A DNA stretch of 64,000 nt. Origin: Streptomyces sp. NBC_00335. GTDB taxonomy: Bacteria; Actinomycetota; Actinomycetes; Streptomycetales; Streptomycetaceae. Positions 47,776 through 59,517 of this stretch are shown here, piece after piece. The notes below the pieces were generated by a model, which saw nothing but the letters and a program-made list of their open reading frames with translations, was not told the origin of the DNA and did not search any database. The number at the start of each line of letters is the position of its first letter. Position 1 is the first letter of the stretch. The stretch spans positions 8,113,501-8,177,500 of the forward strand of contig NZ_CP108006.1 of NCBI RefSeq assembly GCF_036127095.1. Reading direction: 5' to 3'. Position numbers and translations under genes: made by a program.

Positions 47776-48522
47776 CTAGCGGTCCCCGGACCGCCGCTCC
47801 AGTGGAGTTGCTACTGCCGAGTTGTTCACACTGAAAGTGACGCTTCCGGCACGGTAGCGGTCGTCGGACCACTCGATGGGGCGGCCCGTGCGGGTCGCGG
47901 AGACGTGCCGCTGGCGCAAAAGCGGGCTGCCGCGGCGGATTTCCAGCAGCCGGGCGTCCTCGCTGCCGGCGGGCAGGGCGTCGATGAGGTGCTCGCCGTA
48001 GTGGGCGACGATGCCCGAGTCGTTCGCCAGCCCGTCCATCACCGAGCGGCAGTCCTCGGGCATCGCTTCGACCGCCGCCGCGACCCAGTCGGCGTAGGCC
48101 GTCCGTTCGACCATCGTGGGCTCCCCGTCGAGCAGTCGGAGCCGCAGGACGGCGAGGATCTCCGTGCCGTCGGGCAGGGCCAGCCGCCCCGCTTCCTCGG
48201 CGGTGGCCGGGCGGCGGGTGCGCGACAGGAAGCGGCTCGCGGCCTGGTGGCCGACCCCCTCGGCCCACTGGGCGAAGCTGTTGAGCTCGCCGAAACTGTG
48301 CTTGCGCTCGTGGCGCAGGACGATCCGGCGGGCCCCCTGCCGGGAACCGATCAGCCCCTCGGCGGCGAGCGTCGCCACGGCCTGGCGGACGGTCCCGCGG
48401 GAGGCCGACCAGAGCGCCGCCAGATCGCTCTCCGAGGGCAGTTGGGCGCCCACCGGGTACTGGCCGGAGAGGATCGCCCGGCGCAGCGCCTCGGCGATCT
48501 CCAGATACCGCACCGTCCCCAT
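47776..48522 (-). CDS. GntR-family regulator with UTRA domain
   Basis: 248-residue HutC-type regulator. Helix-turn-helix LEIAEALRRAILSGQYPVGAQLPSESDLAALWSASRGTVRQAVATLAAEGLI, then UTRA effector domain (AVLRLRLLDGEPTMVERTAYAD; PIEWSDDRYRAGSVTFSV). It resembles the second GntR gene at 55616. It is divergent from the ABC importer and the intervening 258 bp contains the palindrome ACTTGTTCAGACAAGT (48728-48743), so this protein is the best candidate to repress the importer. Effector may be the phosphonate ligand. Confidence 0.9.
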   Translation of the reverse strand: MGTVRYLEIAEALRRAILSGQYPVGAQLPSESDLAALWSASRGTVRQAVATLAAEGLIGSRQGARRIVLRHERKHSFGELNSFAQWAEGVGHQAASRFLSRTRRPATAEEAGRLALPDGTEILAVLRLRLLDGEPTMVERTAYADWVAAAVEAMPEDCRSVMDGLANDSGIVAHYGEHLIDALPAGSEDARLLEIRRGSPLLRQRHVSATRTGRPIEWSDDRYRAGSVTFSVNNSAVATPLERRSGDR

Positions 48523-48727
48523 GTCGTCCCCGTCCCCGTCCCGTCAGTGCCGTCGGCGTAGTCGGTCTTCGTCCTGCCCGCCAGCCTAGGCATGTGGGTG
48601 TTCGAAGATCATCATGCGGGTCCGCGGTCACGATCGGATCCGGCCAATCCCGGTCTTCGTCGAGACGTGCACCGCGCGACAGGCTCCGTTCACCGTCCGT
48701 ACAGTGCCCCAGGGCGAACTGGAGCCA

Positions 48728-48743
48728 ACTTGTTCAGACAAGT
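48728..48743. promoter_or_regulatory. 16-bp GntR operator ACTTGTTCAGACAAGT
   Basis: Perfect ACTTGT-TCAG-ACAAGT inverted repeat, 38 bp before the importer GTG start. It shares the pattern A-S-TTGT-N4-ACAA-S-T with the palindrome at 58133-58148 before the TmpA-like gene. The form fits HutC-subfamily operators. Confidence 0.7.
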
Positions 48744-48780
48744 GAACCACCTGCCATGGATCCAGTCTCCGGGAGAGACC

Positions 48781-49950
48781 GTGCTCAGTTCCTCCGCCCG
48801 TCGCGGTGCGGCCGTCCTGCTCAGTGCCGCCGTGCTCACCACGCTCAGCGCGTGCGGCGCCGCACCCGACAACGCCGCCGGCTCCGCCGGTGGCGACGGC
48901 AAGAACAAGACCCAGCCCGGCGCCGCCACCTCGGTCGCCGACTTCGGCGGCCTGGAGGGCCTCGTCGCGGCCGCCGAGAAGGAGGGCGAGCTCAACGTCA
49001 TCGCGCTGCCCGCCGACTGGGCGAACTACGGCGAGATCCAGAAGGCGTTCGCGGCCAAGTACCCCAAGGTCAAGATCAACGCCGAGAACCCGGACGCCTC
49101 CAGCGCCGACGAGATCGCCGCGGTCAAGTCCCGCAAGGGCCAGACCCGCGCCCCCGACGTCCTGGACCTCGGCATCGCCTTCGCGCGCAGCGGCGCCGCC
49201 GAGAACCTCTTCGCCCCGTACAAGGTCACCGCCTGGGACCAGATCCCCGCCGCCCAGAAGGACGCGGACGCCCGCTGGTACAACGACTACGGCGGCTACG
49301 TCTCCATCGGCTGCGACGCCGCCCGCATCCCGAACTGCCCGCAGTCCTTCGCCGACCTGGCCAAGCCCGAGTACAAGGGCAAGGTCGCCCTCAACGGCAA
49401 CCCGACCAAGTCCGGCTCCGCCTTCGGCGGCGTCTACGCGGCGGCCCTCGCCAACAAGGGCTCCTTCGCGGACGTCCAGCCCGGCATCGACTTCTTCGGC
49501 CGGCTGAAGAAGAGCGGCAACTTCATCCCCGTCGAGTCCACCCCGGCCACCGTCGAGAAGGGCGAGACGCCCATCTCGATCGACTGGGACTACCTGAACG
49601 CCGGCTACGCCGAGCAGTTCAAGGGCAAGGGCGTCGACTGGAAGGTGGCCATCCCCACCGACGGCGTCTACGCCCAGTACTACTCGCAGGCCATCAACAA
49701 GGACGCCCCCCACCCGGCGGCCTCCCGCCTGTGGATGGAGTTCCTGTACAGCACCGAGGGCCAGAACCTGTGGCTCAAGGGCTTCGCCCGCCCCGTGCTG
49801 CTGCCCGCCATGACCCAGGCCGGCACCGTCGACAAGGAAGCCGTCACCAAGCTCCCGCAGGTCCAGGGCACCCCGTCCTTCCCGGCCTCCACCGAGCTGG
49901 ACAAGGCCAAGGCCACCCTCGCCGAGAAGTGGGACAAGGCCCTCAGCTGA
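48781..49950 (+). CDS. ABC importer substrate-binding lipoprotein, phosphonate type proposed
   Basis: 389-residue lipoprotein. GTG 48781 follows GGGAGAGACC; signal peptide ends in the lipobox LTTLSACGAAP (Cys about residue 24). The body is an iron/2-aminoethylphosphonate-like type 2 binding protein (ELNVIALPADWANYGEIQKAFAAKYPKVKINAENPDAS; PDVLDLGIAF; TPATVEKGETPISIDWDYLNAGYAEQ). First gene of a tightly packed operon: two permeases, ATPase and HAD phosphatase, joined by TGATG and ATGA overlaps. Phosphonate as cargo is inferred from the shared operator with the TmpA/TmpB-like genes; a polyamine or sugar phosphate cannot be excluded. Confidence 0.82.
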   Translation: MLSSSARRGAAVLLSAAVLTTLSACGAAPDNAAGSAGGDGKNKTQPGAATSVADFGGLEGLVAAAEKEGELNVIALPADWANYGEIQKAFAAKYPKVKINAENPDASSADEIAAVKSRKGQTRAPDVLDLGIAFARSGAAENLFAPYKVTAWDQIPAAQKDADARWYNDYGGYVSIGCDAARIPNCPQSFADLAKPEYKGKVALNGNPTKSGSAFGGVYAAALANKGSFADVQPGIDFFGRLKKSGNFIPVESTPATVEKGETPISIDWDYLNAGYAEQFKGKGVDWKVAIPTDGVYAQYYSQAINKDAPHPAASRLWMEFLYSTEGQNLWLKGFARPVLLPAMTQAGTVDKEAVTKLPQVQGTPSFPASTELDKAKATLAEKWDKALS

Positions 49951-50858
49951 TGTCCGCCTCCTCCACCCTCCCCCACTCGACGGGGACCGCCGGCGGCGGC
50001 ACCACCCGCCGCCGGCGGCGCGGCCCGCGCACCTGGCTCGCCGCCCTCCCGCTCCTCGTCTTCACCGGACTGTGCTTCGGCGTCCCGCTGGGCGCCATCG
50101 CCTTCGGCGCGGTCACCCGTACGGACCCGGCGAGCGGCGCCACCGAAGCGACCGGCGAGCACCTGGCCCGCTCTCTCCAGGGGCCCTACCTCGGCTCGCT
50201 CATCGGCAGCGTCCAGCTCTCCGCCCTCACCGCACTCGTGGCCGGAGTGCTCGGCGTCCTCATCGCGCAGGCCGTCGTCACCTCCCCCTCCCGCGCCCTG
50301 CGCGGGGCGACGCTGACCGCCTCCGGCGTCCTCGCCAACTTCGGCGGGGTCCCGCTCGCCTTCGCGTTCATCGCCACCGTCGGAATCTCCGGGGTCGTCA
50401 CCCAGCTCGCCGACCTGACCGGCCTCGGCTGGAACCTCTACTCCTTCACCGGCCTCACCGTGGTCTACCTCTACTTCCTGACCCCCCTCATGGTGCTGGT
50501 GACCGTCCCCGCGCTGGACGGACTGCGCCCGCAGTGGCGCGAGGCCGCCCAGAACAACGGGGCGAGCGGATGGCAGTTCTGGCGCCACGTCGGCCTGCCC
50601 GTCCTCGCGCCCTCCCTGCTCGGCGGGTTCGTGCTGCTCTTCGGCACGGCCTTCGCCGCGCACGCCACGGCCGCCGCCCTCGTCGGCGGCTCCGTCCCCC
50701 TGGTCACGCTCAAGATCGCGGACGCCCTGTCCGGGAACGTGCTGACCGGCCAGGAGAACGTGGCCCTGGCCCTCGGCCTCGACATGATCGTGATCGCCGG
50801 CCTGGTCATGGCGGTCTACCTGCCCCTCCAGCGACGGAGCGCCCGATGGCTGCGATGA
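49950..50858 (+). CDS. ABC importer permease, first subunit
   Basis: 302-residue inner-membrane permease with about six hydrophobic segments. The EAA-type cytoplasmic loop is WREAAQNNGASGWQFWRHVGLPVLAPSL (about residues 190-217). The start ATG overlaps the binding-protein stop as TGATG, so translation is coupled. An Arg-rich cytoplasmic N-terminus (TRRRRRGPR) precedes the first helix. Belongs to the BPD_transp_1 family of spermidine/phosphonate/iron-type importers. Confidence 0.9.
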   Translation: MSASSTLPHSTGTAGGGTTRRRRRGPRTWLAALPLLVFTGLCFGVPLGAIAFGAVTRTDPASGATEATGEHLARSLQGPYLGSLIGSVQLSALTALVAGVLGVLIAQAVVTSPSRALRGATLTASGVLANFGGVPLAFAFIATVGISGVVTQLADLTGLGWNLYSFTGLTVVYLYFLTPLMVLVTVPALDGLRPQWREAAQNNGASGWQFWRHVGLPVLAPSLLGGFVLLFGTAFAAHATAAALVGGSVPLVTLKIADALSGNVLTGQENVALALGLDMIVIAGLVMAVYLPLQRRSARWLR

Positions 50859-51889
50859 CCCCGACGCCCACCCCGAACGACGAGGCCTCCTCGAACGACG
50901 AGACCCCCTCGGCTGCCGGTCCGGCCGTCGCCGCCCGGCACGGGGACCGGGACCGGCAGGAACCCGCGGCCCGCACGCCGCGCCGGCTGCGCCCCCGCTC
51001 CCGGCCCCGGGTGTGGCGCGGAGCCGTCCTCGCGCTCGCGGGCGCGTACTTCGTCCTCCCGCTCCTCGCCTCCTTCGTGTTCACCGTGCACGTCCCCGGC
51101 CAGGGCATCAGCTTCGAGGCGTACACCCAGCTGCTCTCCGCCGAAGGGTTCACCGAGAGCCTGCTGCTCTCGCTGGGCCTCGCCGCCGCGACCATCGCCG
51201 CGTCGCTGCTCCTCGCCGTGCCCGCGCTGGTCGCCGTACGCATCGGCTCGCCGCGGCTGCGCCCGGTCGTGGAGGTGATGTGCATGATGCCGCTGGTCGT
51301 GCCGCCCATCGCCCTGGTCACCGGTATCACCACGGTGCTGCGCTGGGGTCCCGAACACCTCTCCAGGACCCCGCTCTACCAGACCTTCCTCGCGGTCCAG
51401 AACCCGGATTTCCCCGTCGTCCTGGTCCTCGCGTACACCGTGCTCGCTCTGCCCTTCGTCTACCGCTCCCTCGACGCGGGCCTGCGCGCCGTCGACGTCC
51501 CGACCCTGGTCGAGGCCGCCCGCAGCTGTGGCGCGAGCTGGCCGTACGTGGTCCTGCGCGTGATCCTGCCGAACCTGCGGGCAGCCCTCGCCGGAGCCGG
51601 ATTCCTCACGCTGGCCCTGGTCCTCGGCGAGTTCACGATCGCCTCGCTGCTCGGCTTCCAGCCCTTCGCCGTGTGGATCGTGTCGATCTCCGGAGCGCAC
51701 GCCCGCATGTCGGTGGCCGTCTCCGTCCTCAGCCTCCTCATCACCTGGCTGTTGCTGCTCCTCCTCTCCCGGGCCGGCACCACCCCCACCACCGTGTCCG
51801 CCGGGCCCTCGCGCGGCTCCGGAACCTCTCGCACCTCCCGCACCTCCCGCAGTTCTCGTACCTCCCGTACCTCCGGCAAGGAGTCCTGA
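50846..51889 (+). CDS. ABC importer permease, second subunit
   Basis: 347-residue permease. Chosen start ATG 50846 has GGAG 7 bases ahead; ATG 50855 would overlap the previous stop as ATGA. EAA loop: VEAARSCGASWPYVVLRVILPNLRAAL (about residues 223-249). After the last helix there is a tail of Ser/Arg/Thr repeats (GTSRTSRTSRSSRTSRTSG) encoded by 9-base ACCTCCCGC-like units at about 51823-51875; it is absent from typical permeases. It overlaps the first permease gene by 13 bp. Confidence 0.9.
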   Translation: MAAMTPTPTPNDEASSNDETPSAAGPAVAARHGDRDRQEPAARTPRRLRPRSRPRVWRGAVLALAGAYFVLPLLASFVFTVHVPGQGISFEAYTQLLSAEGFTESLLLSLGLAAATIAASLLLAVPALVAVRIGSPRLRPVVEVMCMMPLVVPPIALVTGITTVLRWGPEHLSRTPLYQTFLAVQNPDFPVVLVLAYTVLALPFVYRSLDAGLRAVDVPTLVEAARSCGASWPYVVLRVILPNLRAALAGAGFLTLALVLGEFTIASLLGFQPFAVWIVSISGAHARMSVAVSVLSLLITWLLLLLLSRAGTTPTTVSAGPSRGSGTSRTSRTSRSSRTSRTSGKES

Positions 51890-51894
51890 CCCGC

Positions 51895-53028
51895 ATGTCC
51901 CTCACCCTTCCCGAGGCAAGGAAGTCCGCGGAAAGCGAAGCGGCCCGAGGCGGAGCGCGCGTCGAATTCCGCGGCCTGCGCCGGGCGTTCGGCTCCACCG
52001 TCGCCCTCGACGGACTCGACCTCACCATCGAGCCCGGCGAACTCGTCGCCCTGCTCGGCCCGTCGGGCTGCGGAAAGACCACCGCGCTGCGCGTCGTCGC
52101 CGGCTTCGAGCAGCCCGACTCCGGCGAAGTGCTCCTCGACGGAAAGGACATCACCCGGATTCCGGCCAACCGCCGCGACGCCGGCATGGTGTTCCAGTCG
52201 TACAGCCTCTTCCCGAACCTCAACGCGCGCGACAACGTGGCCTTCGGCCTGCGCGTGCGCAAGGTCGGAGCGGCCGCGCGCCGCGAGCGCGCCGCCGAAC
52301 TCCTCGACCTCGTCGGCCTGCCCGACCACGGCGACCGCTACCCGCACCAGATGTCCGGCGGCCAGCAGCAGCGCGTCGCGCTCGCCCGCGCCCTCGCCCT
52401 GCGCCCCCGCGTCCTGCTGCTCGACGAGCCGCTCTCCGCGCTGGACGCGAAGGTACGGTCCAGCCTGCGCGAGGAGATCCGTCGGCTCCAGCTCTCCCTG
52501 GGCATCACCACCGTGTTCGTCACGCACGACCAGGAGGAGGCCCTGTCCATGGCCGACCGGGTCGCCGTGCTCAACGCGGGCCGCCTGGAGCAGTGCGCCG
52601 CCCCCGCCGAGCTGTACGAGCGGCCCGCGACCCCGTTCGTCGCCGAGTTCGTCGGCACCATGAACCGGCTCCCCGGACGGCTGTCCGGATCCGGGACGGT
52701 CGAAGTGGCCGGCTCCCGGCTGCCGGTGGACGGCCCGGTGCCTTCGACCCCGGACGTCGAGGTGCTCGTACGACCTGAGAACATCACGGTGACGGCGGCA
52801 GCCGAGGGCGCGGCCACCGTCGTATCGGCCTCGTTCTTCGGGTCGGTGACCCGGCTCCACCTGGATCTGCCCGACGGCATCCGGATCAAGGCCGACCTGC
52901 CCTCGCGGGAGGCAGGAGCCCTCGTACCGGGCGCGCGGGCAGCCGTGGGCCTGGCCGAACGCCCCGTCCTCGTCGTCGCCACCGCGGCCGCCACGGCCAC
53001 CGCCTCAGCCCCAGGGGAAGCTTCATGA
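51895..53028 (+). CDS. ABC importer ATP-binding subunit
   Basis: 377-residue ATPase. Walker A GPSGCGKTT (about residues 55-63), Q-loop FQSYSLFPN, signature MSGGQQQRVALARAL, Walker B RVLLLDEPLSALD and switch VTHDQEEA. A TOBE-type C-terminus (VLVRPENITV; SFFGSVTRLHLDL) matches the spermidine/iron/phosphonate importer class. ATG 51895 lies 5 bp after the permease stop. Its stop overlaps the next start as ATGA. Confidence 0.93.
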   Translation: MSLTLPEARKSAESEAARGGARVEFRGLRRAFGSTVALDGLDLTIEPGELVALLGPSGCGKTTALRVVAGFEQPDSGEVLLDGKDITRIPANRRDAGMVFQSYSLFPNLNARDNVAFGLRVRKVGAAARRERAAELLDLVGLPDHGDRYPHQMSGGQQQRVALARALALRPRVLLLDEPLSALDAKVRSSLREEIRRLQLSLGITTVFVTHDQEEALSMADRVAVLNAGRLEQCAAPAELYERPATPFVAEFVGTMNRLPGRLSGSGTVEVAGSRLPVDGPVPSTPDVEVLVRPENITVTAAAEGAATVVSASFFGSVTRLHLDLPDGIRIKADLPSREAGALVPGARAAVGLAERPVLVVATAAATATASAPGEAS

Positions 53029-53690
53029 CCGGACTCGCCGCCGTCCTCTTCGACATGGACGGCACCCTCGTCGACACCGAGGTCCTGTGGTGGCAGACCA
53101 CCGCGGAGATCGCCGCCGGCCTGGGTTACGCCCTGACCGACGCCGACGCGCCCGAGGTGGTCGGCCGGGCGGTGGAGGACACCGCCGCTCACCTCGTACG
53201 GGTCGCCCGCGCGGGGGACGCCGAGGAGGTGGCGCGGGCCCTGACCGACAGCTTCTTCGGCCGGGTCGAGGAGGGTGCGCCGCTGCGGCCGGGCGCGCAG
53301 CGGCTGCTGACCGCCCTGGAGGCGGAAGGCCTGCCGTTCGCTCTGGTCAGCGCCTCGCCGCGGGTGGTCGTGGACTCGGTGGTGGGCGGCTCGCTGGCCC
53401 ACGTCCCCTTCGCCTTCACCGTGTCCGCCGACGACACGTCCCTGACGAAGCCCCACCCGGACCCCTACCTGGCCGCCGCCGCCCGCCTGGGCGCGGAGCC
53501 GTGGAACTGCGTGGCGGTCGAGGACTCCCCGGACGGCGCCGCCTCCGCGGAGGCGGCCGGCTGCGGGGTCCTGGTGGTCCCGTCCCTGCTGGAGGTCCCC
53601 CCGTCGGCGGTACGCACCTTCGCGCCCTCCCTCACCGAGGTCACCCCGGACACCCTGCGGGCCTGCCTGGCGGTGGCGTCGAGGGTCTGA
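53025..53690 (+). CDS. HAD-family phosphatase
   Basis: 221-residue haloacid-dehalogenase hydrolase of the beta-phosphoglucomutase-like subgroup. Motif I VLFDMDGTLVDTE (Asp nucleophile at residue 10), motif II ALVSASPR, motif III TKPHPDPY and motif IV VAVEDSPDGAAS. Start ATG overlaps the ATPase stop (ATGA), so it belongs to the importer operon. It lacks the cap-lysine pattern I would expect of phosphonoacetaldehyde hydrolase, so it is better read as a phosphatase for an imported or derived phosphate ester. Confidence 0.88.
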   Translation: MTGLAAVLFDMDGTLVDTEVLWWQTTAEIAAGLGYALTDADAPEVVGRAVEDTAAHLVRVARAGDAEEVARALTDSFFGRVEEGAPLRPGAQRLLTALEAEGLPFALVSASPRVVVDSVVGGSLAHVPFAFTVSADDTSLTKPHPDPYLAAAARLGAEPWNCVAVEDSPDGAASAEAAGCGVLVVPSLLEVPPSAVRTFAPSLTEVTPDTLRACLAVASRV

Positions 53691-53724
53691 CGGGGCGGGG
53701 TCACCCGGAGTCGCGGGACCGGCG

Positions 53725-53757
53725 GATCAAGCCGGACATCGCCGGTCCGGCTTGATC
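53725..53757. terminator. Terminator hairpin between HAD and HD genes
   Basis: GATCAAGCCGGAC pairs perfectly with GTCCGGCTTGATC across a 7-base loop. It closes the importer operon and faces the convergent HD-domain gene, so it may act both ways. Confidence 0.8.
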
Positions 53758-53793
53758 GGGCCCGGCCCGACCCCTGGAGGGCGTCAGGTCCCT

Positions 53794-54417
53794 TCAGGCC
53801 TCCAGGGGGTGCGGGTCCGCCAGGATGCGTTCGGCGAGACCGCCCCGTACGGACGCGGCCGGGGAACTCTCCGGCTTGCGGGCGGCCTGGTCACGGAAGC
53901 AGGCCAGGAACTCGTCCGCGAGGCCCTCACGGGGGTACCGGGCCAGTACCTCCGCCCGGAACGCGGCGGTGAAGTCGTCCGCGTTCCGCCCGGAGATGTC
54001 CGTGCCGGTGGCCCGCTCCAGCAGATGGCCCTCCGGGTCCTCCCGCACGTCCACCGCGTCCCACATGTGCCGCACGATGACCTCGTGCAGCCGCTGCCGG
54101 CGCTCCACCGGCCAGCCGGCCCCGGCGCCGAACACCCAGGCCACGTGCCCGCCGGCCTCGTCGAAGGCGACGGTGTGGCTGTCGAACTCCGGGGCCAGCC
54201 CGATGTCGTGGAGCAGCGCGGCCACGTACAGCAGCTCGGCATCGTGCTCGATGCCCCGGTCCGCGGCGTACTTGGAGGCCCACAGGTAGGACCGCACCGA
54301 GTGGTTCAGCAGGGCCGGGGTGCAGTAGGCGGTGGCCACTTCGAGCGCGGCGGCGCAGGCGGCGGTGCCGGGGGCGGCGGGTACGGTCAGTGCTTCGCGG
54401 GACGTTTCGATGGTCAT
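53794..54417 (-). CDS. HD-domain protein, cyanamide hydratase-like
   Basis: 207-residue metal-dependent HD protein. LLNHSVRSYLWA (His about residue 41), LLYVAALLHDIGLAPEF (His-Asp about 72-73) and HEVIVRHMWDAV follow the cyanamide hydratase/DDI2-like pattern of an HD fold with Zn. ATG 54417 is used rather than an upstream start. It lies between the importer and the TmpB-like genes but is convergent with the former, so a link with phosphonates is uncertain. It is a different HD subgroup from the TmpB/PhnZ-like gene at 56409. Confidence 0.8.
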   Translation of the reverse strand: MTIETSREALTVPAAPGTAACAAALEVATAYCTPALLNHSVRSYLWASKYAADRGIEHDAELLYVAALLHDIGLAPEFDSHTVAFDEAGGHVAWVFGAGAGWPVERRQRLHEVIVRHMWDAVDVREDPEGHLLERATGTDISGRNADDFTAAFRAEVLARYPREGLADEFLACFRDQAARKPESSPAASVRGGLAERILADPHPLEA

Positions 54418-54496
54418 GATCCGGAGTATGCCGACCAACCTCGGTCGATCGACATCCATTTCGATCACTGAGACCCGAACCGCTCCGGCCACAGCA

Positions 54497-54988
54497 CTAG
54501 ACGGTGAGGTCGAGCAGGCTCAGGATTCCGTCCGCGTAGGCGGCCGATTCCGAGCCCGGGCGACGGGTCGCCGTGTCGCGCAGTCCGGGCAGGCCGGAGC
54601 GGATGTGCGCGGCGCACTGGCCGTACAGGCCGGCCTCGTGCGAGGAACCGTCGTCCTCGGAGCCCAGGAGGCGCAGCAGCGCCCACAGCAGGGCCTCGCG
54701 CGTCGACTGCCGGGGCGGCCCGGCGAACCAGACGGCCATCAGGACCCCGCACACCGCAGGTGCGGGCGGCCGCAGCACTCCGGTGTGGAAGGCGTGGCCC
54801 TCCAAGGCGCGGAACGCGGCCGGGTGTCCCTCGGCCGCGTCCCACAGGGTGTCCGCGAGGTGGCCGAGATGCCCCGCCGGGCGACCGCAGCCGCATTCGA
54901 TGGAGTTCCAGTCGTGCCGGGCGATCTCCCGGGCCACCGCGTCGGGCACCAGCGGGCTGGTGCGGGGCTGCTTTTCCGTCGTTCTCAC
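54497..54988 (-). CDS. Hypothetical protein with CGCG-H motif
   Basis: 163-residue cytoplasmic protein, start GTG 54988. Not recognised. It shows a Cys-containing motif WNSIECGCGRPAGHLGHLADTLWDAAEGHPAAFRALEGHAFHTGVL near the N-terminus, with several His, and a helical C-terminal half (REALLWALLRLLG). Similar proteins appear to be streptomycete-specific. It is preceded on the same strand by the cupin gene (64 bp) and could be co-transcribed with it. Confidence 0.65.
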   Translation of the reverse strand: MRTTEKQPRTSPLVPDAVAREIARHDWNSIECGCGRPAGHLGHLADTLWDAAEGHPAAFRALEGHAFHTGVLRPPAPAVCGVLMAVWFAGPPRQSTREALLWALLRLLGSEDDGSSHEAGLYGQCAAHIRSGLPGLRDTATRRPGSESAAYADGILSLLDLTV

Positions 54989-55052
54989 GGGAGAAGTATG
55001 GGATCAGGCCGGTGGCCCGTCCAGAGCGGCCCGCCCGAAGGGGACCCCGAGG

Positions 55053-55439
55053 TCAGCCCGCGTGCCCCTGGCAGCCGCAGCCCTTCGCCGCGGCGCGCGG
55101 CAGGCCCTCGGTGAACTCGCTCTGGGAGAACACCGCCAGGACCGTGGCCGGCTCGGCGCCGTGGTTGACCAGGGTGATCTCCTTCCCGGCCGGCAGCATC
55201 GCGAAGGTGCCCGGGGTCACCGTCTTGGCGCCACATCCGCAGGAGGCCTCCACCGCCCCGGCCACGCCCGTCAGCAGCAGCTCGGACGCCCCGTGCGCGT
55301 GCGCCGGGACCGTCCCGCCGGCCGGCACCTGGATCCGGACCGCCGCGAGCTCGCGGAAGGGACCGCCCTCGGGGTCGAGGCGCAGCGCCGGGCCGCCGGT
55401 GGTGGTGTCGGGAGTGGTGTCGATGGTCATGCCGAACAT
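55053..55439 (-). CDS. Small cupin-domain protein
   Basis: 128-residue single cupin. VPAGGTVPAHAHGASELLLTGVAGAV contains the first motif (HAH...E) and GTFAMLPAGKEITLVNHG the second. A CGCG pair (ASCGCGAKTV) interrupts the core and the C-terminus ends KGCGCQGHAG, so four Cys may form a metal or disulfide site. ATG 55439 follows AGAGGAACC by 5 bases. Function unknown; sugar or small-acid binding is common in the family. Confidence 0.8.
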   Translation of the reverse strand: MFGMTIDTTPDTTTGGPALRLDPEGGPFRELAAVRIQVPAGGTVPAHAHGASELLLTGVAGAVEASCGCGAKTVTPGTFAMLPAGKEITLVNHGAEPATVLAVFSQSEFTEGLPRAAAKGCGCQGHAG

Positions 55440-55615
55440 GGATGGTTCCTCTACGCGTTGGTGCGCGGCCCCGCCGTGCGGGCCGGGCCACGGCCACCGG
55501 TCCTTCCGGTCACGTTTCGAATTTAGACGACGCTCATCATCTCAATACCGGGCGGAACGTCCCGACCTCCCGGGCCTTTCGGCTCGCCCGGGCCGGGTCA
55601 TGACAGGCTGGCCCC

Positions 55616-56386
55616 GTGAACGAGGCACCGCGCGACCCAGCACCCAGGACACCGCTCTACCTGAGGGTCGCCGGAGACCTGCGGACCGCCATCACCGCGG
55701 GCGAGTACGGGTCCGGCGCGCGACTGCCCGCCGAGGACGAGCTCGCCCGCCGCTACGGCGTCTCCAGGGGTACGGTGCGCCAGGCCCTCGCCGCCCTGCG
55801 CACCGACGGGCTCATCACCTCGCGGCGCGGCACCCGCCGGGTCGTCCTCGGAGGCGGCGCGGGGGAGGCCGGGGGAGTCGCGGAGCTCCGTAGCTTCACC
55901 CGGTGGGCCCGCTCGCTCGGCGAGGAGCCCGGAGGGCGGACCGTAACCGTGGACCGGGGCGAGGCCGACGCCGAGGAGTCGGAGCGGCTGCGGATCGACG
56001 CGGGAGCCCCCGTGTACCGCGTGCTGAGGCTGCGCACCCTGTCCGGGGCCCCCGTGATGATGGAGCGCACGACGTACCCGGAGCCGGTCGGCGCCCTGGT
56101 CGCCGGCATGCCGCCGGACACGGTCTCCTACTCCGAGCAACTCGCCCGGCACGGAGTCCTCTTCGCCGATGCCCACCACACCATCGACATCGCGGCGGCC
56201 GACGCGGACGACGCACGGCTGCTGGGCTGCCCGGAGGGCGAGGCCCTGCTGCGCGAACGGCGCCGCTCCACCGACCCGGCGGGGGTTCCGGTGGAGTGGT
56301 CGCAGGACCGGTACCTGCCGGGAACGGTGGCCTTCACCGTGCACACCTCGGCCGCCAGCGCGCTGGGCCGGCTGCTCGGCACCTGA
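55616..56386 (+). CDS. GntR-family regulator with UTRA domain
   Basis: 256-residue HutC-type regulator. Helix-turn-helix LYLRVAGDLRTAITAGEYGSGARLPAEDELARRYGVSRGTVRQALAALRTDGLI and UTRA core YRVLRLRTLSGAPVMMERTTYP; VEWSQDRYLPGTVAFTVHT. It is the paralogue of the GntR at 47776 (same recognition helix SRGTVRQA). It converges on the TmpB/TmpA-like pair and probably controls it through AGTTGTATATACAACT (58133-58148). The two regulators may compete for the same operator class. Confidence 0.9.
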   Translation: MNEAPRDPAPRTPLYLRVAGDLRTAITAGEYGSGARLPAEDELARRYGVSRGTVRQALAALRTDGLITSRRGTRRVVLGGGAGEAGGVAELRSFTRWARSLGEEPGGRTVTVDRGEADAEESERLRIDAGAPVYRVLRLRTLSGAPVMMERTTYPEPVGALVAGMPPDTVSYSEQLARHGVLFADAHHTIDIAAADADDARLLGCPEGEALLRERRRSTDPAGVPVEWSQDRYLPGTVAFTVHTSAASALGRLLGT

Positions 56387-56408
56387 CCGGACCGTGCTCC
56401 GCCCTTGA

Positions 56409-57002
56409 TCAGCTCGCGATCAGGAGCCCCTCCAGCAGCGGCCGGAAGTGGTCGAAGTCCGGGGTGGCCAGTTCGGGGTCCTTGGCCTGCTCGTCCCAGC
56501 GCCGCACGGCCACCGCGTCGGCCGCCCCCGGCAGCGCCTCGAACGCCCGCGCCTGCTCGGCGGTCATCGGGCCGCCCTGGACCCGCAGCGTGTGCACGGA
56601 AGCCTCCGACAGCAGGTCGAAGTAGCCGGGCTCGGCCGTGCACAGGTAGCGCTTGGCGGCCACGTGCAGCCGGACCGGCTCGGTCACCTCCGGCCCGAAC
56701 CACCGGGCCAGCCAGTCGGCCCCGGTGTGGCTGTGCCGGTTGTCCTGCCCGCCCTCCATCAGGTCGCGGCCGGTCACGGTTCCGTGGAAGTGCCCGATGT
56801 CGTGCAGCAGCGCGGCCGCCACCAGGTGGGCGGGGGCCCCGGCCGCCTCGGCGAGGGCCCCGGCCTGGAGCATGTGCCCGGCCTGGGTGACGGCCTCGCC
56901 GAAGTACTCGGCGCTGCCCTCGCCCTCGAAGAGGCGGGCCAGCGCGTCGATGGCGCCGGCCCCGGGGAGGTCGCGAGGGACGGCGGTGTCGTGGGCTTTC
57001 AC
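56409..57002 (-). CDS. TmpB/PhnZ-like HD-type diiron oxygenase
   Basis: 197-residue HD-domain oxygenase that should cleave the C-P bond of a 1-hydroxyphosphonate, releasing phosphate and an acid. The ligand set of PhnZ/TmpB is complete and in order: Tyr33-x-x-Glu36, His43, His67-Asp68 (ALLHDIGH), His90 (NRHSHTGADWL), His113 and Lys117 (LHVAAKRYL), Asp170 (RRWDEQAKDP). TmpB makes glycine betaine plus phosphate from hydroxylated 2-trimethylaminoethylphosphonate; PhnZ makes glycine. GTG 57002 overlaps the upstream stop as GTGA, coupling it to the dioxygenase gene. Confidence 0.85.
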   Translation of the reverse strand: MKAHDTAVPRDLPGAGAIDALARLFEGEGSAEYFGEAVTQAGHMLQAGALAEAAGAPAHLVAAALLHDIGHFHGTVTGRDLMEGGQDNRHSHTGADWLARWFGPEVTEPVRLHVAAKRYLCTAEPGYFDLLSEASVHTLRVQGGPMTAEQARAFEALPGAADAVAVRRWDEQAKDPELATPDFDHFRPLLEGLLIAS

Positions 57003-58108
57003 GCGCAGGCTCCTTCGCGGCGCAGGACGGCGAGGGTGGAGAGCAGCCCGTCGAGATCGGCGTACGTCCCCTGGAGGTGGCGTCCGCCCGATTCGGCGAA
57101 GGCGGTACGGGCGTGCAGCAGGCGGGTGTTGTCGAAGACCACGCAGTCACCGGGCGCGAGCCGGAAGTCGAGCCGCAGCTCGGGCCGCTCCAGCAGCTCG
57201 CCGAAGAGGCGGTAGGCGGCGTAGAACTCCTCCAGCACGGACGCGGGCTGGTGCAGCGTGGAGATGGAGCGGTTGTTGAAGCGGACCTCGCGGATCCGCC
57301 CGAGCGGGTCCACGCCGATCAGCGGCCGGTGGGCGCGCAGTTCGCAGTGGGCGTCGGCGAAGGCGAACTCCACCGGCACCCGGGTCAGCACCTCGAAGGC
57401 CTCCGGTTCCCGCTCGCGCAGCAGCGCCGCGGCGTGGAAGCCGTCCACCAGACCGGAGTCGCCGCCCCGGGCCTCGTTGCGCAGGCAGTGCAGTAGCTGG
57501 AGGGTCGGTACGGGATCCCGGTAGGGGTTGTCGGTGTGCGGGGTGATCAGCGCACCGGTGAAGGCCAGGTTGTTGGGGTCGGCCTCCACGCGGACCTCGA
57601 AGAGCTCCCCGTAGTTCGTCTCGCGGACGAAACCGAAGGTGCGGGCCACGTCCAGCACCATCCGGTCCCGGCACGGGACCTCCCGCAGGAGGGCGAAGCC
57701 CAGCCGGACCACGCTGTCGAGGACCTGCCCGCGGACCTCGCGCGAGCCGATGTACGCGTCCCAGCCGGCCTGTGGGATCCGCCCGTCCAGGTCCGCCGCG
57801 GCCCACAGCTTCTTGTCCGCCTCGGTCCGCCCGTCCCCGGCCGTGCGGTACGCCGGTCCGTCCGGGGCGTGGGCGTCGAGCCACCGGGCCGGGTACACGG
57901 AGCGGTGGCCGTCCGGCCGCCACACCACCTCCCAGCCGGGCCCGCCGTCGGGGGCGGGCGCCTCGCGCACGGCGCCGACGGCCAGGCCGGCGGGCAGCTC
58001 GGTGATCTGGAACAGCTTCTGGCCGGTGCGCGGGTCACGGCACTCGGCACAGGGGCAGTTGTCGCGCAGCCAGGGCGCGGGCGGGCGGGTGATCGCCGGT
58101 ACGGACAT
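56999..58108 (-). CDS. TmpA-like 2OG dioxygenase (gamma-butyrobetaine hydroxylase fold)
   Basis: 369-residue Fe(II)/2-oxoglutarate dioxygenase. N-terminal zinc module with Cys18, Cys20, Cys23 (NCPCAEC) and His68, then the TauD domain with Fe ligands His191-x-Asp193 (LITPHTDNPYRD) and His332 (NTRLLHARTAF). This two-module form is that of gamma-butyrobetaine hydroxylase and of TmpA, which hydroxylates 2-trimethylaminoethylphosphonate. Coupling to a PhnZ/TmpB-like gene makes the phosphonate role much more likely than carnitine synthesis. ATG 58108 has AGGAGCC upstream and a GntR-type palindrome 25-40 bp before it. Confidence 0.85.
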   Translation of the reverse strand: MSVPAITRPPAPWLRDNCPCAECRDPRTGQKLFQITELPAGLAVGAVREAPAPDGGPGWEVVWRPDGHRSVYPARWLDAHAPDGPAYRTAGDGRTEADKKLWAAADLDGRIPQAGWDAYIGSREVRGQVLDSVVRLGFALLREVPCRDRMVLDVARTFGFVRETNYGELFEVRVEADPNNLAFTGALITPHTDNPYRDPVPTLQLLHCLRNEARGGDSGLVDGFHAAALLREREPEAFEVLTRVPVEFAFADAHCELRAHRPLIGVDPLGRIREVRFNNRSISTLHQPASVLEEFYAAYRLFGELLERPELRLDFRLAPGDCVVFDNTRLLHARTAFAESGGRHLQGTYADLDGLLSTLAVLRREGACA

Positions 58109-58132
58109 CGTGGCTCCTGCCAAGCTCGGGAA

Positions 58133-58148
58133 AGTTGTATATACAACT
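58133..58148. promoter_or_regulatory. 16-bp GntR operator AGTTGTATATACAACT
   Basis: Perfect palindrome, 25 bp before the TmpA-like start, with TATATA/TATACA at its centre that may also be the -10. Same class as 48728-48743: A-S-TTGT-N4-ACAA-S-T. It matches known HutC-subfamily sites in form. Confidence 0.75.
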
Positions 58149-58302
58149 CTGAGGTGCCCGCAGCGTGGCAGGGAGAGGTGACCTGGAGATGGCGCACAGG
58201 TGACCGGAACCGGATCGGGGCGGCGGCCGTCTGAGACCGGGGCTGACAGGCCCTGGGGGGCTGCCCGCGGACCAATGCGCCGCGGGCTGATGAGCGGGGA
58301 GC

Positions 58303-59517
58303 GTGGGGGAGACGGTGCGGGCGGCAAGGGTGAGGGCGGCGAACGTGGGGACAGCAAGCGTGCCGGCGGTGAGCGTGCGGACGGGAAGCGTGCGGACGGC
58401 GAGCGTGCGGGCGGCCGCGTGGATCAGGCGAAGGGCGGGACTCCTGCTGTTCGCGCTGCTCGCGACCCAGTTGGGGTCCCTCGTCAGCCCGGCCTACGCC
58501 TGCGGCTGCGGGGCCATGGTCCCCGACGGCAGCTCCCGGTTCGGAGTCTCCCGGGAAGCCTCCGTGGTCCGCTGGGACGGCCGGACCGAGCAGGTGGCGA
58601 TGCGGTTCACGGTCGGGGGCGATGCCAAACGGGCCGCCTGGATCATGCCGGTCCCGGGGCGGGCCACGGTGCGCCTCGGCGACGGCGGGCTGTTCTCGCA
58701 GCTGGTGGACCTGACCGGACCCGAGTACCGCACCCGCACCTACTTCTGGCCCCGCCGCGGTGACTGGCCCCTCGACTCCGGCCGGGGAGACACGGCCGGG
58801 GCCGCGCCGCCCGGCAGCGGTGAGCCGCGGGTCGGCGTCGTCGGCCGGGAGCAGCTCGGCGACTTCGACGTGGCCCGCCTGACCGCCACCGACCCCGGGG
58901 CGCTGGGGGACTGGCTGGAGGCCAACGGCTTCGTGCTCCCCGACCGCCTCTCCGCCGAGCTGGAGCCGTACGTGGACCAGCGCTGGGAGTACGTCGCCGT
59001 ACGGCTCGCCCCCCGCGAGCCGGGTGCCACCCTGCGCGGCACCCTGGACCCGCTCCTGATCCGCTTCGAGAGCGACCGGCTCGTCTACCCGATGCGGCTG
59101 TCGCGGCTGGCCGCCACCGCCCAGTCCCTGGGCCTGTACGTCCTGGCGGAGCACCGCATGGAACCCGTCTCCGCGATCGGCGGCAACGCGCCCGAGGTGA
59201 CCTTCGCCGGGCGGATCACCCCGACGGGACCGGTCGCCGCGTTCGCGGGCGCGGAGCCGGTGTTCCTGACGGCCATCGACCAGAGCTTCCCGGTCCCGTC
59301 CCGGATCGACGGCGACCACGAACTGCGCGCCGCCGCCGCGGACGCCCCGTACCGCAGGGTCGAGTACACCGACGAGCTGCTCACGGCCGGCGGCGTACCG
59401 GTCTGGATCCTCGCGTTCGGGGGCGCGCTCGCGGTGGCCGCCCTGGCGGCCGTCCTGACCGCGCTGCGGCTGCGACGCGGCCGGACGGCCACCGTGCCGG
59501 GGAGTCCGCACGTGTAA
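58303..59517 (+). CDS. DUF2330 membrane-anchored protein
   Basis: 404-residue protein of the DUF2330 family. After a signal (AGLLLFALLATQLGSLVSPAYA) comes CGCGAMVPDG, the typical Cys pair, then SREASVVRWDGRTEQVAMRF and WIMPVPG. A C-terminal helix (VWILAFGGALAVAALAAVLTAL) anchors it. GTG 58303 is the open-frame start, but the first 38 residues consist of 5-residue repeats (ASVRT-type) encoded by 15-bp DNA repeats, so a later GTG inside the array may be real. Function unknown. Confidence 0.75.
   Translation: MGETVRAARVRAANVGTASVPAVSVRTGSVRTASVRAAAWIRRRAGLLLFALLATQLGSLVSPAYACGCGAMVPDGSSRFGVSREASVVRWDGRTEQVAMRFTVGGDAKRAAWIMPVPGRATVRLGDGGLFSQLVDLTGPEYRTRTYFWPRRGDWPLDSGRGDTAGAAPPGSGEPRVGVVGREQLGDFDVARLTATDPGALGDWLEANGFVLPDRLSAELEPYVDQRWEYVAVRLAPREPGATLRGTLDPLLIRFESDRLVYPMRLSRLAATAQSLGLYVLAEHRMEPVSAIGGNAPEVTFAGRITPTGPVAAFAGAEPVFLTAIDQSFPVPSRIDGDHELRAAAADAPYRRVEYTDELLTAGGVPVWILAFGGALAVAALAAVLTALRLRRGRTATVPGSPHV
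58309..58413. repeat. Seven 15-bp tandem repeats at the DUF2330 5' end
   Basis: Units such as GCAAGCGTGCCGGCG, GTGAGCGTGCGGACG, GGAAGCGTGCGGACG and GCGAGCGTGCGGGCG start at 58309, 58324, 58339, 58354, 58369, 58384 and 58399. In frame they give S-V-R-T-A/G peptides; each unit offers a possible GTG start. Copy number may vary between strains. Confidence 0.75.

Follow-up and report, generated by a model that had tools for sequence, protein, structure and literature searches.

Does Streptomyces sp. NBC_00335 import an N-methylated aminoethylphosphonate and oxidise it to phosphate and an osmolyte, and does the ATP-binding cassette (ABC) importer encoded beside its oxygenase genes take part in this? 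The question is raised by a locus in a 64-kb window (the whole stretch of DNA analysed here, G000:C1:8113501-8177500, from a source genome of 9.0 Mb in 2 contigs), which encodes the Fe/2-oxoglutarate (2OG) dioxygenase TmpA, a TmpB-like diiron oxygenase, an importer operon with a HAD phosphatase-type hydrolase, and two GntR/UTRA regulators, GntR1 and GntR2 (Table 1). TmpA and TmpB turn 2-trimethylaminoethylphosphonate (TMAEP) into glycine betaine and phosphate. Our preferred reading, to which we give a probability of roughly 0.6, is that these genes form a GntR-controlled organic-phosphorus module, comprising a PhnS-class importer, the HAD protein and TmpAB acting on an N-methylated 2-aminoethylphosphonate. 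In this module, the importer would bring a small compound with a phosphoryl or phosphonyl group into the cell, and the HAD phosphatase would free phosphate from an ester. TmpA would hydroxylate carbon 1 of the phosphonate, most likely of its trimethyl form, and TmpB would then cleave the C-P bond, giving phosphate and, from the trimethyl form, glycine betaine, while the two regulators would control importer and tmpAB through related palindromic operators. The best reading of the gene content is that tmpAB supplements a more widespread organophosphate-uptake operon with C-P cleavage of a methylated aminoethylphosphonate.

A putative operator common to the importer and tmpAB

Since linkage and regulation are both judged against relatives, the sample is given here. 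A genome scan with TmpA confirmed at least 560 relatives, of which the best 80 were kept as loci (L004-L083); neighbours were counted by tblastn at 1e-8 with single queries, and absences in these counts are soft because 18 of the 80 loci span less than 17 kb. TmpB adjoins TmpA in 78 loci; 61 have a GntR2-like gene, 42 the importer (at least three of its four parts), and 31 the importer together with the HAD gene. The linkage of importer and tmpAB extends over several actinobacterial families and several branches of the solute-binding protein (SBP).

The two regulators are 44% identical over 235 aligned positions, as expected from the sequence-only reading of this DNA, which had called them related; neither reaches the cut-off of the PhnF model TIGR02325 (107.6 and 84.4 bits for GntR1 and GntR2; cut-off 156.8). 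Two related palindromes, both absent from that reading, were found: one, perfect over 16 bases, is 24 bases 5' of the tmpA start, and the other is 37 bases 5' of the inferred SBP start. Within the window their core, TTGTnnnnACAA, occurs only at these two upstream sites. Across the genome the core is not enriched, because it is found 6 times and the reversed control pattern 9 times; the chance that two of the six sites fall at this locus is 1.7e-5, a post hoc value, as the core was first seen here. Among relatives, at least 7 of the 8 core bases are present 5' of tmpA in 69 of 91 regions, where random windows would give 2.85, and all 8 are present 5' of the SBP gene in 38 of 113 regions, where they would give 1.95. 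Some genomes are counted more than once in these rows, and the random windows, taken from whole loci, may contain true sites. We then derived a matrix from tmpA sites only (46 distinct ones) and scored promoters with it, setting the threshold at the 95th percentile of the scores in 210 control windows. This matrix passes the threshold at 33 of the 42 linked importer promoters (L051 barely), and in the window its two top places are the two palindromes, with scores of 39.1 and 17.2 and 1.3 for the next. Because a matrix derived from tmpA alone recognises most of the linked importer promoters, the importer operon and tmpAB probably belong to a single GntR regulon with putative operators, and GntR1 and GntR2 probably read related sites; any assignment of one regulator to one palindrome, like the mode of regulator action, is putative. 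SBP loci without tmpAB carry the site as TTGTTCAGACAA in 28 of 66 cases.

The importer and its ligand

The importer operon with its HAD phosphatase, claimed earlier, was recovered as five genes (SBP, two permeases, ATPase and HAD) spanning about 48781-53690 on the plus strand. The SBP belongs to PF13343, and it scores 53.3, 42.3 and 39.9 bits against the PhnS models NF011620, TIGR03261 and TIGR03227 (cut-offs 310, 392.75 and 395.3); the ATPase likewise stays below the cut-off of the PhnT2 model (406.0 against 457.7 bits). The closest solved protein to the SBP is a Campylobacter jejuni SBP (5t1p, ligand unstated), and the glucose-6-phosphate binders AfuA and VcA0625 are among its structural neighbours. 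The HAD protein resembles sugar phosphatases, with the 2-deoxyglucose-6-P phosphatase 1te2 as its closest solved match, and looks like a phosphoester enzyme; a role as PhnX phosphonatase was rejected (TIGR01422, 35.9 bits against a cut-off of 220).

These likenesses favour the alternative that importer and HAD scavenge a phosphate ester independently, for example a sugar phosphate, with a ligand unrelated to the TmpAB substrate; tmpAB would then be merely adjacent in some lineages and its phosphonate would enter otherwise. The distribution in Streptomyces points the same way: among 295 genomes, strong SBP matches are present in 104 and TmpA in 12 (partly a hand count), and 38 of 40 further SBP loci have GntR1, HAD and a phosphodiesterase-like domain, TmpA being found in none of the 40. 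The usual 3' end of importer operons without tmpAB is HAD plus phosphodiesterase domain, and in seven relatives without the tmpBA block U163 and DUF2330 lie 56-229 bp apart. Against this alternative stand the linkage in 42 of the 80 loci, across families and SBP branches, and the operator common to importer and tmpAB, and we consider it unlikely, while it is still the rival that survives best. The statistics of co-occurrence are weak: the SBP is present in 11 of the 12 TmpA genomes and in 93 of the 283 others (Fisher P 6e-5, kinship ignored and the counts made partly by hand).

Several of the results weigh against our preferred reading and should be stated together: the SBP is under all three PhnS cut-offs, it is far commoner than TmpA in Streptomyces, TmpA lies away from the importer in 4 of the 12 TmpA genomes, and the matrix misses nine linked importer promoters (L006, L007, L008, L012, L015, L044, L046, L062 and L066), the first three of which belong to loci close to the window; the TmpB equivalog score and one cage residue of TmpA, given below with the enzymes, count on the same side. 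An importer dedicated to the tmpAB substrate was rejected, as the SBP is widespread in Streptomyces without tmpAB. Since many genomes have the importer without the oxygenases, it probably serves another molecule too, and the type of HAD protein, taken with the phospholipase C and phosphodiesterase genes in the loci of relatives, suggests that phosphate esters are also imported. The earlier claim of phosphonate import stands in part: the importer is tied to tmpAB by neighbourhood and operator, and phosphonate as its ligand does not follow, given how common the importer is without tmpAB. Under the preferred reading, the co-regulated importer most likely supplies the TmpAB substrate at least in part.

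Phosphocholine, the ester analogue of TMAEP, may perhaps be among the imported esters. We speculate, tentatively and with more doubt than confidence, that the importer is one uptake route for choline-like phosphorus compounds, that is, phosphocholine-like esters and their isostere TMAEP; HAD (with the phosphodiesterase where present) would cut the ester and TmpAB the phosphonate, choline or glycine betaine would be left, and the GntR regulators would sense both. Hints in this direction come from phosphocholine-specific phospholipase C homologues in 5 of the 80 loci, one of which, in L012, lies between tmpAB and the importer's regulator (732.7 bits, cut-off 580.25), from a small transporter of SMR/Qac type in 21 of the 80, and from aromatic SBP residues, W56, Y59 and Y146 among them, which are invariant in all three SBP groups. 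Conserved SBP residues are the same with or without tmpAB, in a comparison of 38 positions hand-picked from conserved columns. A secreted-type phosphodiesterase domain is present in 4 of the 80 loci and a TIGR03767 metallophosphoesterase in 2.

Some further observations concern the importer operon and its neighbours. The SMR/Qac-type transporter lies 3' of HAD in many Kitasatospora-type loci (e.g. L020:17658-17978). In operons free of tmpAB (L162:4367-6052, L184-L222), an endonuclease/exonuclease/phosphatase-type domain follows HAD or shares its frame; this domain had no PDB match at E 0.001. In one genome (G012) the importer operon is broken between permeases 1 and 2, and its two parts lie far apart on the same chromosome (L144 and L169). 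In L200 (G289), a locus without a TmpA match, a GntR2-like gene (75%) adjoins the importer HAD.

The oxygenases and their substrate

TmpA reaches the cut-off of the NCBIfam TmpA equivalog NF049936 (418.4 against 400 bits, scanned with the longer frame 56999-58357), and its closest solved match is TmpA 6npb (302 bits, E 4.7e-89). In an alignment of 76 sequences, including 73 locus proteins, it keeps the H-x-D...H iron triad, as the earlier reading had noticed, and the 2OG arginine. It also keeps all three phosphonate-binding residues, N187, N287 and R288, as defined in the accessible text of PMC9296572. Among the locus proteins R288 is kept in 73 of 73 and the two asparagines in 68 and 63. The four columns that we take, by the numbering of gamma-butyrobetaine dioxygenase (GBBH), to be the trimethylammonium cage read Y, F, F, Y in the window and Y, F, Y, Y in the reference. 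The Cys3His zinc site, which the earlier reading had counted towards TmpA, is real, its ligands being kept in 73, 71, 70 and 73 of 73 relatives. It does not identify TmpA, because the same columns are A, D, T and K in the reference TmpA of Leisingera caerulea; they are C, C, C and H in human GBBH. On these residues and scores, TmpA is predicted to be a likely hydroxylase of TMAEP.

TmpB passes the cut-off of the broader Phn-HD oxygenase model TIGR03276 (228.1 against 214.6 bits) and falls short of the TmpB equivalog NF049941 (197.7 against 300). We call it TmpB-like for this reason. It keeps all HD diiron ligands, the switch Tyr and Glu and the Lys, so that every TmpB/PhnZ residue previously listed (YxxE, HD, K) is in place; the roles of the diiron ligands and of the Tyr/Glu switch are taken from the accessible text of PMC8177086. 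Many database entries label its relatives as phosphonate-degradation HD oxygenases. TmpA and TmpB share one open frame in 44 of the 80 loci (range L010-L078), probably a fused protein of about 545 residues. A profile search of the genome found PhnJ absent, PhnX below its cut-off and Phn-HD once (other phosphonate routes, for instance PhnA, PhnW or TIGR03351, were not searched); a C-P lyase (PhnJ) or PhnX route was rejected, neither being above cut-off, and TmpAB is the sole predicted C-P cleaving system found among those searched.

Another phosphonate could be the substrate instead, such as 2-aminoethylphosphonate (AEP), its mono- or dimethyl form, or a longer quaternary phosphonate. The TmpB equivalog score and the replacement of one cage Tyr by Phe would fit this, as would HpnW-like genes in 6 of the 80 loci (an example above cut-off, 290.0 against 285.1) and PhnX-like genes in 7 (an example just below, 202.3 against 218.9). 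The TIGR03364 member PbfD1 oxidises mono- and dimethyl AEP, not the trimethyl form, according to the accessible part of PMC10590968. Opposed to this, the TmpA cage is all aromatic, and TmpB is closer to solved TmpB 6npa than to PhnZ (163.8 bits, E 4.5e-47, against 114.9 bits), with M44 and C121 as in TmpB where PhnZ has Ser and Val; we regard a different phosphonate as decidedly improbable. The PhnX-like and HpnW-like neighbours fit methylated aminoethylphosphonates as well. That TmpA is a GBBH for carnitine synthesis, with an unrelated HD protein beside it, can be dismissed: the TIGR02409 score (355.9 bits), the GBBH-like zinc site and the name gamma-butyrobetaine dioxygenase given to some homologues (many others being labelled TMAEP dioxygenase) are outweighed by the TIGR02409 cut-off of 414.75, which is missed, by a weaker match to solved human GBBH (167 bits), by Arg at position 288, where GBBH has Ala, and by the HD oxygenase that adjoins TmpA almost throughout.

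The preferred reading for the enzymes is that they most likely oxidise an N-methylated aminoethylphosphonate, with phosphate and a compound of the glycine betaine type as products. The oxidation part of the earlier claim is thus borne out by profile scores, active-site residues, the adjacency of TmpB and the PhnX- and HpnW-like neighbours.

Relation to known systems

TmpAB biochemistry in the accessible literature comes from one bacterium, L. caerulea, whose TmpA (PDB 6npb, 6npc, 6npd) and TmpB (6npa) are of the same families and share the Fe ligands, the phosphonate-binding Asn/Asn/Arg and the Tyr/Glu switch; the window proteins differ in the zinc site, the cage Phe and the equivalog score of TmpB. 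PhnY*/PhnZ likewise performs a two-step oxidative C-P cleavage, and PhnZ is homologous to TmpB, with a weaker match. A fungal two-domain fusion of PhnY*/PhnZ type, PhoF, is described in the accessible text of PMC10574752, whereas the fusions in relatives of our locus are TmpA-TmpB. The AEP importers PhnSTUV, AepXVW and AepSTU (accessible text of PMC8316502) have an SBP in the same family, PF13343; the window SBP is below the PhnS cut-offs, and the comparison covered the PhnS models. Synthesis of the antibiotic dehydrofosmidomycin also passes through TMAEP as an intermediate, and there DfmD catalyses a biosynthetic rearrangement of it (PMC9296572, as accessible); DfmD is a TmpA relative, but biosynthetic, and a far weaker match (PDB 9j0j, 122 against 302 bits).

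The enzyme pair as such is not new, because many database entries already label relatives. The new element is the core palindromes 5' of both tmpA and the importer, which probably point to a common regulon. In the accessible parts of a mainly open-access literature (including PMC10574752, PMC8177086, PMC9296572, PMC8316502, PMC11203657, PMC12366243 and PMC10590968), we found no report of an importer-tmpAB regulon or of TmpA-TmpB fusions. Here TmpAB recurs among actinobacteria as a module that has regulators of its own and an importer, often as a single TmpA-TmpB chain. The locus makes it testable whether soil actinomycetes obtain phosphate and an osmolyte from TMAEP, and also offers a handle on the ligand of an importer strongly matched in about one third of the 295 sampled Streptomyces genomes.

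Gene layout of the locus

Genes were found by codon-position G+C and protein-family scans (Pfam, NCBIfam cut-offs). The tmpA and tmpB reading frames share 4 bases, in keeping with the coupled gene pair described before.

Table 1. Features of the importer-tmpAB locus, in window coordinates
Feature	Position	Strand	Evidence
GntR1, GntR/UTRA regulator, divergent from importer	47776-48522	-	PF00392, PF07702
Putative operator ACTTGTTCAGACAAGT, 5' of SBP gene	48728-48743	.	Sequence comparison
SBP, lipoprotein-type, GTG start 48781 inferred	48781-49950	+	PF13343 89.7 bits; AF2 model pLDDT 90
ABC permease 1 (start inferred)	49950-50858	+	Open frame; kept in relatives
ABC permease 2	50846-51889	+	PF00528; gene call
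ABC ATPase with TOBE domain (start inferred)	51895-53028	+	PF00005, PF08402
HAD phosphatase-type hydrolase, DMDGT motif	53025-53690	+	PF00702, PF13419
HD protein, cyanamide-hydratase type	53794-54492	-	54.7 bits, below cut-off 109.85
U163, 163-residue protein, no Pfam family	54497-54988	-	Gene call
Small cupin	55053-55439	-	Gene call
GntR2, GntR/UTRA regulator	55616-56386	+	Pfam scan
TmpB-like Phn-HD diiron oxygenase	56409-57002	-	TIGR03276; conserved residues
TmpA, Fe/2OG dioxygenase	56999-58108	-	NF049936; conserved residues
Putative operator AGTTGTATATACAACT, perfect palindrome, 5' of tmpA	58133-58148	.	Sequence comparison

Between HAD and GntR2 lie three minus-strand genes (HD protein, U163 and cupin) that the earlier reading did not include. 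At this place the near-identical locus L004 has no counterpart of the HD protein, which would represent a recent insertion or loss relative to L004. In the close Streptomyces clade, U163 adjoins the importer with or without tmpAB, and the small cupin is seen only in loci that hold the tmpBA block or abut it at a contig end.

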